Assembly: GCF_009866765.1 (NCBI RefSeq)
Contig: NZ_CP019431.1
Span: forward strand, 4,464,001-4,528,000
Length of the DNA: 64,000 nucleotides
Direction: 5' to 3'
Source: Pseudomonas sp. S35
GTDB lineage: Bacteria; Pseudomonadota; Gammaproteobacteria; Pseudomonadales; Pseudomonadaceae
Numbering within the stretch: the first letter of the stretch is position 1; each line of letters begins with the position of its first letter. A program made the position numbers and the translations under genes. Shown here in pieces: positions 2 to 48,600 of the stretch. The notes under the pieces are model-generated. The model searched no databases and was not told the DNA's origin. It saw nothing but the letters and a program-made list of their open reading frames with translations.

Positions 2-1282
2 GGCCACGACAGCATGCTGCTCAACCTCAGCGGCGCCCACGGGCCATTTTTTACGCGCAACATCGTCATCCTCAAGGACAGCTCGGGCAACACCGGCGTC
101 GGTGAAGTGCCGGGCGGCGAACGCATCCGCGAAACCCTGGAGGACGCGCGCAGCCTGGTGATCGGCCAACCCATCGGCCAGTACCAGCGCATCCTCAACC
201 AGATGCGCCGCACCTTTGCCTCGCGGGATTCGGCCGGCCGTGGCCTGCAAACCTTTGACCTGCGCATCACCATCCACGCCGTCACCGCCATGGAAGCCGC
301 CCTGCTCGACCTGCTGGGGCAGTTCCTCGAAGTGCCGGTGGCCGCCTTGCTCGGCGAAGGCCAGCAGCGCGACGCGGTGAAGATGCTCGGCTATCTGTTC
401 TATGTGGGCGACCGCAGCGCCACCGACCTGGCCTATCGTAACGAAGCGGATGCCGACGACGATTGGTTCCGCCTGCGCCATGAAACAGCCCTGACGGCTG
501 AAGCCGTGGTGCGCCTGGCCGAAGCCGCGAAGGCCAAATACGGCTTCAACGACTTCAAGCTCAAGGGTGGCGTCTTGAGCGGCGACGAAGAGATCGAAGC
601 GGTCACCGCCCTGGCCGAACGCTTCCCCGATGCGCGCATCACCCTCGACCCGAACGGCGCCTGGTCACTGAAAGAAGCCATCCGCCTGTGCCGCGACCAG
701 CACCACGTACTCGCCTACGCCGAAGACCCGTGCGGGGCCGAAAACGGCTACTCGGGCCGCGAAGTCATGGCCGAATTCCGCCGCGCCACGGGCCTCAAGA
801 CCGCCACCAACATGATCGCCACCGACTGGCGCGAAATGGGCCACGCGATCCAATTGCAATCCGTGGACATCCCCCTGGCCGACCCGCACTTCTGGACCCT
901 GCAAGGCTCGGTACGCGTGGCGCAAATGTGCAACGACTGGGGCCTGACCTGGGGCTCGCACTCCAACAACCACTTCGATATTTCCCTGGCGATGTTCACT
1001 CAAGTGGCCGCTGCCGCACCGGGCGACATCACCGCCATCGACACCCACTGGATCTGGCAGGACGGCCAGCGTTTGACCAAAGAGCCGCTGAAGATCGAAG
1101 GCGGTTATGTGAAAGTACCGGCCAAGCCGGGCCTGGGCGTGGACATCGACATGGACGCCTTGGCCAAGGCCCACGAGCTGTACAAAGGCATGGGCCTTGG
1201 GGCGCGGGATGACAGCGTGGCGATGCAGTTCCTGATTCCGGGGTGGAGTTTCAACAACAAGCAGCCTTGCCTGGTGCGCTGA
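2..1282 (+). CDS. gudD: Glucarate dehydratase, 5' end cut by window
   Basis: Enolase-superfamily enzyme that dehydrates D-glucarate to 5-keto-4-deoxy-D-glucarate in the cytoplasmic aldarate catabolic pathway. The reading frame is open to the window edge (GHDS precedes the first visible ATG at 14), so the true start is upstream and 426 residues are visible against about 450 in the family. Seen: the lysine motif FKLKGG, metal ligands in LDPNGAW and AEDPCG, TATNM, and the catalytic histidine segment [10 protein letters not shown]. The C-terminus is complete. Its transporter and regulator are not in view on this side. Confidence 0.95.
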
Positions 1283-4560: not shown

Positions 4561-4679
4561 TTGTAGACATGTCCTACAGCAAGCTGCAGCGCCTTGCTCC
4601 GTTACCTACAGTTGCGTCAGAATCCGCCGGCTTGTGCACTTGAGTGGGCGTCTCTAAGGTGGCCCGGTCGCTGACAACT

Positions 4680-4889
4680 CAGTGATCGGGTTTAGTAGCC
4701 CGAGTGACAACATAAAGTGCATGAGCCTCATCGATCAGATGTTCTTGTCTGTACTTGATGGTGGCTGTGCGCAGGGCGCCCTCGGGCGCGCCGGCTTTGT
4801 GTGTTTCCCCGGTCTACTAACCTGCGCACAGCCGCCACCCTCTCGTTTAGTAGCGAAAAGGTGTTGGCCCTAAAACAGGTACAACACAC
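4680..4889 (+). promoter_or_regulatory. Structured leader RNA candidate upstream of DUF6124 gene
   Basis: A long-range stem pairs 4760-4775 with 4821-4839 (16 pairs, one 3-nt bulge) and encloses two hairpins: GCGCC-CTCG-GGCGC at 4776-4789 and CCGG at 4791/4808. Hairpins at 4686-4703 and 4843-4856 both present the loop TTTAGTAG. The junction strand CTACTAA (4814-4820) is exactly complementary to both loops. A last stem GTGTTG (4861)/CAACAC (4882) holds the AGG ribosome site in its loop, 9 nt before the ATG. The layout suggests a riboregulator of translation; ligand and mechanism are unknown. Confidence 0.6.
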
Positions 4890-5237
4890 ATGTACAAAGT
4901 CACGCCTAACCCTCCGAACGGTCCCGACCTGAAACTGAATCAGGCGGCGCATCGTGCGATTGATCACTACCTCAACGCGGGCGCCGAACCGCCAGGGCCG
5001 CCTCCTCCACCTTCGAATACGCTGTTCAGCGTTGCGGACGATGTCAGCAGTGAAGTGCTGATTGCCAATAGCTATGAGACTTTTTCTTCGGTGACTGCGT
5101 TGTTGCTGGACCTGTCGGATGAGCTGACGGGGAAGCAGCGGGATGTGGCGTTGGCGATTCACCAGTTGAGTGAGTTGGGGGTTTTGTTGGTGGATAAGTT
5201 GATGGAGCGGGAGCTGATAGCTGACCCTCAACACTAA
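4890..5237 (+). CDS. DUF6124 family protein
   Basis: 115 residues beginning MYKVTPNPP, the typical opening of the DUF6124 family in Pseudomonas. A proline-rich linker (about residues 34-41, GPPPPPS) is followed by a helical C-terminal half (NSYETFSSVTALLLDLSDELTG...AIHQLSELGVLLVDKLM). No signal peptide, no membrane span, no known catalytic residues. Function unknown. It is monocistronic between a structured leader and a hairpin terminator. Confidence 0.85.
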   Translation: MYKVTPNPPNGPDLKLNQAAHRAIDHYLNAGAEPPGPPPPPSNTLFSVADDVSSEVLIANSYETFSSVTALLLDLSDELTGKQRDVALAIHQLSELGVLLVDKLMERELIADPQH

Positions 5238-5247
5238 GTTAGGTCGC

Positions 5248-5288
5248 CGAGTCGTTGTGATCTCTATTACGACGACTCGCGATTTTAT
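5248..5288 (+). terminator. Rho-independent-like terminator after DUF6124 gene
   Basis: CGAGTCGT (5248-5255) pairs with ACGACTCG (5272-5279) across a 16-nt loop and is followed by GATTTTATTT. It begins 10 bp after the stop codon. Confidence 0.65.
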
Positions 5289-5559: not shown

Positions 5560-6333
5560 ATGGACGTCGATTCTAAAACTGAACAAAAGAAGAACCCCAC
5601 GTGGGACATCGGATTGACGGAGGAGCTAGTCACTGCGGTATTCGGGGCGACACAGTGGAAGAAGGCGCACCCTAGTGTAAGATCCATGACGGACAGACCT
5701 CAGTTCTGCCGTTACCACTACCACGAAGCCTTGGACATGATGAATGGATACATCGAATCCAAACTGAAGGAGACAGGCTTGTGGGGTGTCTACGAGGACT
5801 ATGATGAGTTTAGTTACCTGATGCTGAAGATCAGGGCGAATATCACTGCCTTCGTCCAGAGCCTGCATGCCGTGGCGGATACCTGTTCCCACATGCTCTA
5901 CTACTCCTTGGCGCTGGACAACCTCCCCAGGCCCCTCAAGGAGCGGGACATCTATGCCAAGGAGGTCCTCAAGCTCCTAGAGCAGCAACGCGCTGCCGGG
6001 AATTCCGAGTACGACAAACTCTGTAGATTTTTCCGCGAGATCACAACTGGCGATGACTACAAGTACCTTAATGCCCTGACCAACACGTCAAAGCACCGCA
6101 GCATCGTCCGCTCAGAACTGAACGAGGACGCCACCGGCAAACGGGAAGAGAAGTGGATTCTGTTCTTGGAGTCGTTTTGGTACGCGGGAGAGTTGTTTGA
6201 AAAAACCAACGCTCGCGAGTTCATGCGAAAAGAGCATGACCGTATTCAATATCTGACCGTAAACATTGGTGTGGAACTGAACGATATCTTGAAGAAGCTC
6301 CAACCTTTGAAGCCCACAACCCAAGCAATTTAA
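5560..6333 (+). CDS. Unrecognised helical protein, 257 aa, accessory
   Basis: A clear ribosome site (AAGGGGAAAA) precedes the ATG. The protein is predicted mostly alpha-helical, charged, without signal peptide or membrane span. A conserved-looking stretch LNALTNTSKHRSIVRSEL (about residues 170-187) resembles the N-x-x-KHR motifs seen in HEPN-like or all-helical defence-associated hypothetical proteins, but I cannot assign a family. GC and codon use are more mixed than in the flanking core genes, which suggests horizontal acquisition. Nothing nearby is clearly its partner, although the next two genes are also accessory. Confidence 0.75.
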   Translation: MDVDSKTEQKKNPTWDIGLTEELVTAVFGATQWKKAHPSVRSMTDRPQFCRYHYHEALDMMNGYIESKLKETGLWGVYEDYDEFSYLMLKIRANITAFVQSLHAVADTCSHMLYYSLALDNLPRPLKERDIYAKEVLKLLEQQRAAGNSEYDKLCRFFREITTGDDYKYLNALTNTSKHRSIVRSELNEDATGKREEKWILFLESFWYAGELFEKTNAREFMRKEHDRIQYLTVNIGVELNDILKKLQPLKPTTQAI

Positions 6334-9529: not shown

Positions 9530-10020
9530 GAGATGTATTGCGCCACCGACGAGCGCAGGGACCGGATTGTGTTGCAGCTGTTCAACGACAGTCTGATCGC
9601 CTCGGCCGGGTGGTGGTGATGCCGCTGGAGTGTGAGGACATTCGCGGTGGCGGTAAGCGGTAGGGGGATGCAGGAGCGGATTGCCAAGTTGGGGGCCAAT
9701 ATCAAACGGGTGTCGCGGTGCATGGGGGGCGCACGCTGGCGGGGCGAGTTTGCATATCCTGTTGATTGTGCAGGCGATCCAGCAGATCGCCGGGCAAACC
9801 AACTTGCTGGCGCTCAACTCCGCGATTGAAGCGGCGTGGATGTCGACCTGCTGTCGAGTGAGATCCAGCGGGTGGCCCAGCAGATTGAAGACCAGTCCAC
9901 GGGGTCGGCGCGCTGCGGGAGATGCAGGATGTGCTGGAGGCGTCGAGCCGGGCGACGGAGGGTACGGCGCAGCGGACCAAACCCCTTGCGGATACGTTGA
10001 CGGGGTTGACCCATACGTAG
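9530..10020 (+). pseudogene. Decayed methyl-accepting chemotaxis protein fragment
   Basis: Fragments of the MCP signalling domain appear in different frames: RMQERIAKLGANIKRVS, then VQAIQQIAGQTNLLALNSAIEAA (the hairpin-tip signature), then EIQRVAQQIEDQSTGS and LREMQDVLEASSRATEGTAQ. At least three frameshifts separate them and no start or ligand-binding domain is left. It is non-functional. Confidence 0.75.
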
Positions 10021-10113
10021 GCGTTAACGGCAGGAAAAATGGCGTGGGGCTCATGGCTCTGAACGGGGGATTCAGTGCATGATGCGTCGCTCATATCAAG
10101 GACGATAACACCC

Positions 10114-11154
10114 GTGAAAAACACCCTCGCCTCCCTGCTATTGCTGTGCCTGACCGCTCCCGCCTTCGCCGCCGAAACCCCCGTCGGTTTCAAAACCGTC
10201 CCCCTGCCCGATGCGCTAAACAACCGACCACTCGAACTGGTCGTCTGGTACCCCGCCGCCACCACGGCCAAACCCACGCTGATCGCCGATAACGCGGTGT
10301 TTATCGGTGCCTTCGCCGTGCCCGACGCGCCGCCGGCTGCCGGTGAGCATCCGCTGGTGGTGCTCTCCCACGGTTATGGCGGTAACTGGGGCAAGCAGGT
10401 GTGGCTGGCCAGTGCGTTGGCGCATCAGGGTTACATCGTGGCGGCGGTTAACCACCCTGGCACCACCACCAAGGATCGCAACCCGCAAACCGCCGCGCAG
10501 TTATGGCAACGCCCGGCCGACCTGAGCCGCGTGATCGACGCGGTATTGGCCCAGCCGAAGCCATTTGGCGCGGTCGTGAATGGCCAGATTGCCGCCGTGG
10601 GCCATTCCCTTGGCGGCTGGACCGTGCTGGAAATCGCCGGGGCGCGCTTCGACCCCGAGCTGTTCAGCCGCGACTGCAGCGCCCACCCCAAGCTCGGCGG
10701 CTGCATTGGCTATCAGGAGATGAATCCCGCTGGCACGCCAGAAGGTAAAGCGCGCTTGGCGGCGGATTTGAGCGACAAGCGCGTCACCGCCATCGTGTCC
10801 CTGGACCTGGGCCTGTCGCGCGGCTTCACCGACGCCAGCCTGGCTGCGCTGCCGGTACCGGCGCTGGTGATTGCGGGGGGTGTGCCGTCGGAAGATATGG
10901 ACCCGCAGTTGGAGTCCGCTGATATGGTCAAGCGCCTGCCTGAAGCAACGACGAAGTATGTGGAGATCAGCGACGCCACCCACTTCAGCTTTATGTCGAT
11001 CTGCAAGCCGGGCGGCATGGCGTTGATTGAGGAGAGTTCGCCAGGCGACGGCATGATTTGCCGCGATGGTGAGGGGGCTCGGCCACGGGCGGTGATTCAG
11101 CAGCAGGTGGTGGGGCTGATCAGTGAGTTTTTGGGGCGCAAAGCGCCTAACTAA
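10114..11154 (+). CDS. Exported dienelactone-hydrolase-like alpha/beta hydrolase
   Basis: 346 residues from a GTG at 10114 (AAGGA about 11 nt upstream); an upstream GTG at 10075 would only lengthen the leader. The signal peptide NTLASLLLLCLTAPAFA-AE implies export. Motifs: SHGYGGN near residue 85 (oxyanion side), nucleophile elbow GHSLGGW, and a late His in DATHFSFM. It resembles the predicted dienelactone hydrolase / PAF-acetylhydrolase-like family; cysteines (RDCSAHPKLGGC, SICKPGG, GMICRD) may form disulfides in the periplasm. Substrate unknown. Confidence 0.85.
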   Translation: MKNTLASLLLLCLTAPAFAAETPVGFKTVPLPDALNNRPLELVVWYPAATTAKPTLIADNAVFIGAFAVPDAPPAAGEHPLVVLSHGYGGNWGKQVWLASALAHQGYIVAAVNHPGTTTKDRNPQTAAQLWQRPADLSRVIDAVLAQPKPFGAVVNGQIAAVGHSLGGWTVLEIAGARFDPELFSRDCSAHPKLGGCIGYQEMNPAGTPEGKARLAADLSDKRVTAIVSLDLGLSRGFTDASLAALPVPALVIAGGVPSEDMDPQLESADMVKRLPEATTKYVEISDATHFSFMSICKPGGMALIEESSPGDGMICRDGEGARPRAVIQQQVVGLISEFLGRKAPN

Positions 11155-47457: not shown

Positions 47458-48600
47458 ATGATTATTTCGTCCGCCTCCGACTACCGCGCCGCCGCCAAGC
47501 GCAAGCTGCCGCGCTTTTTGTTCGACTACATCGACGGTGGCGCTTACGCCGAACACACGATGCGTGCCAACAGCTCGGACCTGGCCGAGATCAGCCTGCG
47601 CCAGCGCGTGCTGCGCAATGTCGACTCGCTGAGCCTCAAGACCACCGTGTTCGGCCAGGCGCTGGACATGCCAGTGATCCTCAGCCCCGTGGGACTGACC
47701 GGTATGTATGCGCGGCGCGGTGAGGTGCAGGCAGCAAAGGCGGCGGCCAAAAAGGGGGTTCCGTTTTGCCTGTCGACGGTGTCGGTGTGTTCGATTGAAG
47801 AAGTGGCGTCCCAGAGCCCGCAGTCGATCTGGTTCCAACTGTATGTCCTCAAGGACCGTGGCTTCATGCGCAATGCGCTGGAGCGTGCACAGGCGGCCGG
47901 TGTGACGACGCTAGTGTTCACCGTGGATATGCCGACGCCCGGTGCGCGCTACCGTGATGCCCATTCCGGCATGTCCGGGCCGTTTGCGGCGCAACGACGC
48001 ATGCTGCAGGCCGTCACCAAGCCACAATGGGCGTTCGATGTGGGCTTGATGGGCCGCCCCCACGACTTGGGCAATATCTCCAAGTACTTGGGCAAACCCA
48101 CCCACCTGGAAGACTACATCGGCTGGCTGGCCAACAACTTCGACCCGTCGATCAGTTGGAGCGACCTGGAGTGGATCCGCGACGTCTGGAAAGGCCCGAT
48201 GATCATCAAGGGCATCCTCGACCCTCAGGACGCCAGGGACGCCGTGAGTTTCGGTGCCGACGGCATCGTGGTCTCCAACCATGGCGGCCGTCAGCTCGAT
48301 GGTGTGTTGTCCACCGCCAAGGCCCTGCCACCGATTGCCGAGGCCGTGGGCGATGACCTGACGGTACTGGTGGACTCCGGCATCCGCTCCGGACTCGACG
48401 TGGTACGCATGCTCGCCCTAGGCGCCAAGGCATGCCTGCTGGGTCGCGCGACCGCCTACGCATTGGCTGCCGATGGCCAGCACGGGGTGGAAAACCTGCT
48501 GGATATTTTCGCCAAGGAAATGCGCGTGGCGATGACATTGACGGGGGTGACGTCGATTGACCAGATTGACCACACCACCTTGGTCCAACCAGCCAAATAA
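47458..48600 (+). CDS. lldD: FMN-dependent L-lactate dehydrogenase
   Basis: 380 residues from the ATG at 47458. Alpha-hydroxyacid oxidase fold: opening [75 protein letters not shown] with the catalytic His, and [25 protein letters not shown] for FMN phosphate. It oxidises L-lactate to pyruvate at the inner membrane, passing electrons to quinone. The usual permease lldP is not adjacent; here the gene stands alone with a LysR regulator. Confidence 0.93.

Follow-up and report, generated by a model that had tools for sequence, protein, structure and literature searches.

C4 is so far described as an immunity RNA of phages and as phage-derived small RNAs (sRNAs) of Acinetobacter baumannii in the available text of three reports (PMC8198154, PMC12197685, PMC5320573); the first two describe the C4 of phage P1, and the third reports many C4-like sRNAs in A. 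baumannii together with GGW processing. The c4 antisense RNA and c4-a1b1 are among the motifs named in the accessible part of PMC2864571. In the portions available, isrK and C4 form one transcription unit in B. cenocepacia (PMC4603805) and anrP is activated in trans by IsrK (PMC4825925). The phage P1 record gives the order a1, b1 (both labeled 'putative'), C4 (48343-48419), a2, b2 and icd. Rfam models for C4 and a1b1 match phage P1 at 68.8 bits (48337-48422) and 51 bits, respectively. The phage P1 C4 strand CTGTCAA matches TTGACAG at both a1 and a2, while its b1 and b2 are GTTAGTGC and GTTAGTGA. These reports cite Citron and Schuster (1990) and Hartmann (1995). In type I toxin-antitoxin systems, an antisense RNA acts on the gene of a small protein, and the modules occur in multiple copies.

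The leader of a DUF6124 gene was analyzed in a stretch of 64,000 nucleotides from Pseudomonas sp. S35, which as a whole is referred to as the window. The same two Rfam models that recognize phage P1 scored over their gathering cut-offs in this leader (Table 1). Read from its sequence, the segment 4632-5290 is very probably a single C4 cassette, comprising a promoter, a1/b1, C4, a2/b2 at the translation start, the DUF6124 gene and a terminator, in which antisense pairing would repress DUF6124 translation and a1/b1 would relieve it. Around the start of DUF6124 translation, complementarity extends over 7 bp for a'/a2 and 8 bp for b'/b2. A generic promoter scan of the window gave nothing at 4632-4660. 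Four terminator-like sites were found in the region versus 0.9 expected, one of them directly after the DUF6124 gene, and no obvious terminator lies between a1b1 and C4 in the window.

Table 1. Features of the C4 cassette, numbered by position in the window.
Feature	Position	Strand	Basis
Putative sigma-70 promoter (TTGTGC 4632-4637, 17 nt, TAAGGT 4655-4660)	4632-4660	+	Sequence read
c4-a1b1 target element (RF03163)	4654-4706	+	Rfam, 51.1 bits, gathering 46.7
a1, TTTAGTAG	4691-4698	+	7 bases complementary to a'; covaries with a'
b1, ACATAAA	4710-4716	+	Partial complement of b', only 7 nt with one G-U wobble, by eye; position as in phage P1
C4 antisense RNA (RF01695)	4754-4842	+	Rfam covariance model, 79.4 bits, gathering 45
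Putative mature C4	about 4760-4839	+	Phage P1 homology; candidate RNase P site before GGT at 4760
C4 stem P1 (arms 4759-4775 and 4821-4837)	4759-4837	+	Rfam alignment; covariation
C4 hairpin P2	4776-4789	+	Rfam alignment; covariation
C4 hairpin P3, carrying b'	4790-4813	+	Rfam; 88.3% of cells paired
b', TGTGTGTT, in P3 loop	4798-4805	+	Exact 8-bp complement of b2
a', CTACTAA	4814-4820	+	Position in C4 is that of the phage P1 strand matching a1 and a2
a2, TTTAGTAG, hairpin loop	4846-4853	+	Sequence read; covaries with a'
AGG, probable Shine-Dalgarno	4877-4879	+	Sequence read
b2, AACACACA, including first base of start codon	4883-4890	+	Exact complement of b'
DUF6124 gene, 115 aa	4890-5237	+	PF19619, 86 bits, cut-off 27
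Intrinsic terminator-like hairpin with T tail	5248-5279	+	Terminator scan

Membership in the C4 family, the complementary sites, their co-evolution and a genus-wide expansion are directly supported, and C4 repressing DUF6124 translation is the most likely reading of the sequence. We infer processing, repression and release by a1/b1 as follows. By analogy with phage P1, the leader transcript would be cut by RNase P to set C4 free; GGT at 4760 occupies the place equivalent to that in phage P1, where RNase P processing at GGW would give an RNA of about 77 nt. The anatomy and the covariation suggest that C4 would then pair at two sites, a' with a2 and b' with b2, the latter reaching the start codon, and thereby stop translation of DUF6124. 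The a1/b1 sites would compete for these two strands of C4 and could relieve the repression, as the short IsrK RNA does for anrP in Gifsy-1.

Much of this architecture had been noticed in an initial annotation. Its two TTTAGTAG loops are read directly from the sequence and take the roles of a1 and a2, CTACTAA is exactly complementary to seven of the eight loop bases (TTAGTAG), and its long stem enclosing two hairpins corresponds to stem P1 around P2 and P3 in the Rfam alignment. The two mutually exclusive contacts it proposed, one strand with either the upstream or the downstream loop, are the known a'/a1/a2 logic of C4. The contacts b'-b2, at the start codon, and b'-b1 were absent from it. Its statement that no described RNA class was known was wrong, as the element is RF01695 plus RF03163 in the layout annotated in phage P1. 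A new riboswitch or undescribed RNA class was rejected as a reading because the element is in Rfam; among described families, no riboswitch of Rfam was at or over its cut-off in the window. The proposed control of translation stands as the likely role, exerted more likely by an antisense RNA cut from the leader than by a switch in cis.

The minimum-energy fold of 4660-4900 has a free energy of -105.2 kcal/mol (z = -5.61), and 0/200 shuffles were as low. It contains the long stem (4760-4775/4821-4836) and the a2 hairpin (4843-4856). The corresponding hairpin drawn around a1 is absent from this fold, where two bases of a1 are paired in the preceding helix and six are single-stranded. In this fold of the whole leader, pairing in cis already engages both b2 and the start codon. 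The stem that the initial annotation had placed around AGG is also present (4861-4866/4882-4887), but its conservation is weakly supported. Across cassettes, this ribosome binding site (RBS) hairpin scored 4.03 bp for own sequences versus 3.76 bp for permuted ones (2/2000 as high), or 5.46 versus 5.11 when G-U pairs were allowed (0/2000). The signal is so weak (4.03 versus 3.76 bp) that the RBS hairpin was rejected as a conserved second switch.

Co-evolution of the contacts was assessed in cassettes from many Pseudomonas genomes. The C4s of three genomes (11, 55 and 36) plus one each from 29 others gave 131, and after three odd or weak C4s were dropped 128 cassettes remained. Each contact was scored as the longest Watson-Crick run and compared between own and permuted pairings in 2000 permutations. 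With kinship among the 128 cassettes retained, own scores exceeded permuted scores for a'-a2 (6.95 versus 4.02), a'-a1 (7.00 versus 4.56), b'-b2 (7.44 versus 4.72) and b'-b1 (6.59 versus 5.01), and 0/2000 permutations were as high in each case. Loops and a' thus change together, the covariation that had been named as a check in the initial annotation. Both a1 and a2 reach 6 bp or more in 125/128 cassettes. The a' words fall into about 35 types (32/35 complete), a count that is approximate because reading a' at a fixed offset introduces a few register shifts. A b2 of 6 bp or more was present in 103/117 cassettes; 99 of these have an SD-like word, which is overlapped by b2 in 88. In only 7 cassettes, the window among them, does b2 reach the start codon. 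The C4 stems themselves covary: in an alignment of 48 C4 RNAs, picked by hand from the 131 fetched, 96.5% of cells are paired and 16/27 pairs show two-sided changes (0/500 shuffles). This stem covariation, together with the two Rfam models over their cut-offs, places the leader element far from chance.

The sequences that could drive and end transcription also recur. In 114/127 cassettes the pattern TTGNNN-16..18-TANNNT occurs 22-75 nt before a1, most often at a spacing of 31 nt, compared to a mean of 1.9 and a maximum of 6 in 200 mononucleotide shuffles. An a1b1 RNA made on its own would require termination ahead of C4. Terminator-like hairpins between a1b1 and C4 were found in 58/128 cassettes versus 23-31 in ten shuffles, as expected if a short IsrK-like a1b1 RNA is made.

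Predicted duplex energies were used to rank pairings within the three genomes. The own target was the best predicted duplex in the genome for 9/11, 38/53 and 28/35 C4s (75/99), and its margin was at least 2 kcal/mol for 9, 24 and 23 of them (56/99). Conversely, the own C4 was best for 8/11, 32/53 and 26/35 targets (66/99). These rankings suggest that the codes are largely, not wholly, orthogonal. Cross-talk is predicted because the own target is not best for 24/99 C4s and the own C4 is best for only 66/99 targets. Within a genome, most cassettes have the code predicted to match their own target best, and the paralogues therefore resemble switches that work largely independently.

The window's genome (6.61 Mb, one contig) holds 11 C4 matches over cut-off and 11 DUF6124 matches at E <= 0.001. 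DUF6124 follows 9/11 of these C4s, seven over the Pfam cut-off and two just below, and the C4 model search found no C4 at two DUF6124 matches (L014 and L019). The a1b1 model gave 11 matches, five over cut-off, and DUF3077 gave four, two of which overlap DUF6124 matches. A sub-threshold c4-a1b1 match (33 bits) at G000:C1:5580966-5581018 (L037) lacks an adjoining C4 and is a possible free decoy.

The association extends across the genus. C4 was found in 73 and DUF6124 in 60 of 79 sampled Pseudomonas genomes, and their counts per genome correlate (Spearman 0.88, with counts as lower bounds and kinship ignored). At least 46/79 genomes have 10 or more C4s and at least 21/79 have 24 or more; one has 55 matches at E <= 0.001, 52 of them over cut-off. 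Sampling of other genera in the class, at one genome each, gave C4 in 5/142 and DUF6124 in 0/142. C4 lies just upstream of the DUF6124 match in 63/66 genome loci found by protein search, all titled Pseudomonas, the three without it being L210, L228 and L234. C4 cassettes thus precede other DUF3077/DUF6124 genes too, which bears out the similar hairpins that the initial annotation had placed there. Among the best 120 of 626 protein matches, one cluster (P0049) carries the name Klebsiella quasipneumoniae beside Pseudomonas-type relatives. The open-licence papers searched, mostly as titles and abstracts, contained no link of C4 to DUF6124/DUF3077; DUF6124 did not occur in them, and DUF3077 occurred in one unrelated resequencing passage. 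The setting of C4 before a Pseudomonas-centered DUF6124 family looks new, and suggests that Pseudomonas has turned a phage immunity switch into a large set of gene switches.

A total of 118 ORFs with at least 35 aa begin 36-69 nt downstream of a C4; 117 of them were scanned (L157 was left out). At E <= 0.01, 72/117 matched DUF6124, 7/117 DUF3077 and 8/117 Bro-N, and the commonest antirepressor PHROG likewise matched 8. With Bro-N/antirepressor in 8/117, the phage-type target is a minority. The remaining ORFs belong to small unnamed families, such as proteins of 52-54 aa and of about 90 aa, and three examples (L004, L006 and L039) had no Pfam match. One Bro-N protein (L114, 43.2 bits) has an N-terminus with a DUF6124-type KVTPNPP start, as if two ORFs had recombined. 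At L143, L153 and L156, C4 is followed by what appear by eye to be truncated or lost DUF6124 ORFs. From a hand-picked alignment of 60 rows, AF2 modeled the window's DUF6124 protein mostly as a helical hairpin (mean pLDDT 84, pTM 0.54). Foldseek gave no PDB match to this model at E <= 0.001, and the protein had no PHROG, PADLOC or NCBIfam match. No function of DUF6124 is readable from these searches.

One syntenic site illustrates how a code may be replaced. Upstream genes for MsrA, an ABATE regulator and an alpha/beta hydrolase are common to the window, L193, L185 (P. grimontii) and L186. Across these loci, identity in the intergenic flank is 90-93%, and a' and a2 do not differ. L193 carries the window's b code. 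In L185/L186, b1, b2 and the b' loop are only 41%, 37% and 71% identical to those of the window, respectively, and b' again matches its own sites, so all three b elements have changed in concert. One recombined tract running from b1 to b2 would account for this, given that the spacer and hairpin P2 differ as well. Such a site would let a change of antisense specificity be followed at one locus.

Downstream of the cassette, the three genes just 3' include one for a protein matching phrog_37823, a PHROG of unknown function (5560-6333, +), and one for a P-loop ATPase of the Sll1717 family (NF047389; 7772-9280, -). No phage structural gene is among the few annotated genes adjoining the cassette, and a prophage origin of the window copy was rejected. 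An ORF at 9681-10082 (+) contains the stretch QIAGQTNLLALNSAIEAA, which we take to be methyl-accepting chemotaxis-like, and is possibly a gene remnant. The ORF at 10075-11154 (359 aa) was rejected as an MCP; it gave a weak hydrolase-like match far below cut-off. A copy of this gene with 90% identity begins 250 nt after the DUF6124 match in P. palleroniana (L188), so the stretch between DUF6124 and the 10075 gene looks like an insert at a variable site.

Two other readings concern how the leader acts and what it controls. The transcript might stay uncut and work as a switch in cis, with pairing of a' to a1 or a2 alone setting translation, perhaps in response to a ligand or protein. Both pairings are possible in cis, the leader fold is stable (z = -5.61), and b2 and the start codon are paired within it. 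The RBS hairpin is barely conserved, however, nothing points to an aptamer, and C4 is processed from a longer transcript in phage P1 and seemingly also in Acinetobacter, as far as the available text states (PMC5320573), which together make this reading highly improbable. A type I toxin-antitoxin-like module, in which C4 silences a DUF6124 protein that is harmful if freed, would be compatible with the C4 cassette proposed above. An antisense RNA does adjoin a small gene in many copies, and the C4-controlled Icd of phage P1 inhibits cell division according to the accessible part of PMC8198154. We consider such a module unlikely, given the DUF6124 genes without a C4 match (L014 and L019) and the lack of any PADLOC match among the 117 C4-linked ORFs.

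Somewhat easier to entertain, though still tentative, is a mobile, 'moron'-like cassette that prophages and islands would spread, its codes having diverged in a way that lets incoming copies escape a resident C4; this too is compatible with antisense repression of DUF6124 by C4. The cassette has its own promoter-like and terminator-like sequences, and in a prophage one copy (L163) lies between tail-fiber and sheath genes. This interval is a site of extra genes in P2-like phages. Two copies (L159 and L160) lie beside DRT5/PDC-M34 and AAA_15/Abi_alpha genes, and in EU982300 (L258, 9001-9354), a prophage record from P. fluorescens, C4-DUF6124 and prtR form a divergent pair at the edge. These placements suggest that C4-DUF6124 is a moron-like accessory cassette. 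Against mobility, viral contigs gave only 7 loci on 6 contigs, and several of these loci are at contig ends and perhaps represent host flank. Searches of 50,697 phage and 72,556 plasmid records gave no match to the window protein; another DUF6124 protein and the window's C4 each matched a single phage record, EU982300. All three upstream neighbors are kept in 3/46 listed loci (L185, L186 and L193), so the window copy is at least partly inherited in place. C4 was over cut-off in six of the seven viral loci. The seventh (L158) contains the 3' part of a gene, and the C4 accompanies the 5' part at L164: on this 39.6 kb viral contig, the DUF6124 gene is split near codon 17-19 into pieces about 37 kb apart. 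The two pieces share no 14-mer, but inspection by eye pointed to a possible 5-bp duplication of the kind left by Mu-like elements.

If repression by C4 holds, Pseudomonas would provide a natural collection of antisense switches, largely orthogonal and each joined to its target, and the C4 link would offer a first handle on DUF6124/DUF3077. It is conceivable, if rather unlikely, that dozens of C4-locked genes with codes kept different amount to a chromosomal version of P1/P7 heteroimmunity, in which an incoming cassette would be silenced only by a same-code C4 already present in the cell and otherwise expressed on entry.

Compared to known systems, type I toxin-antitoxin modules differ in that the window's C4 is on the sense strand and forms part of the leader that precedes its target. 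The Group 1 C4-like sRNAs of A. baumannii resemble the Pseudomonas cassettes in their many C4-type RNAs per genome and variable a', whereas the available text names no adjacent target gene family (PMC5320573) and the window cassette holds both the target sites and the gene. In IsrK-orf45-anrP of Gifsy-1, a short upstream RNA likewise activates a downstream antirepressor-like gene by pairing, as described in the accessible part of PMC4825925. The isrK model (RF01394, Rfam) scored 30.5 bits in the window and 35.1 bits in phage P1, both below its cut-off of 50, and the downstream gene differs. A P1-type immunity operon has an antirepressor gene in a temperate phage, and the window ORF is a DUF6124 gene with no PHROG match. 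The window's C4 precedes DUF6124 rather than icd/ant, is chromosomal and has 11 copies in its genome; its b2 reaches the start codon, whereas phage P1 has 10 nt between b2 and the icd start. The closest likeness is nevertheless to c4-icd-ant (immI) of phage P1. Both have the order promoter, a1, b1, C4, a2, b2 and small ORF, both place a' between P3 and the 3' arm of stem P1 and b' in the P3 loop, and the 31 nt between the P1c4 -10 box and a1 in phage P1 recur in the Pseudomonas cassettes.
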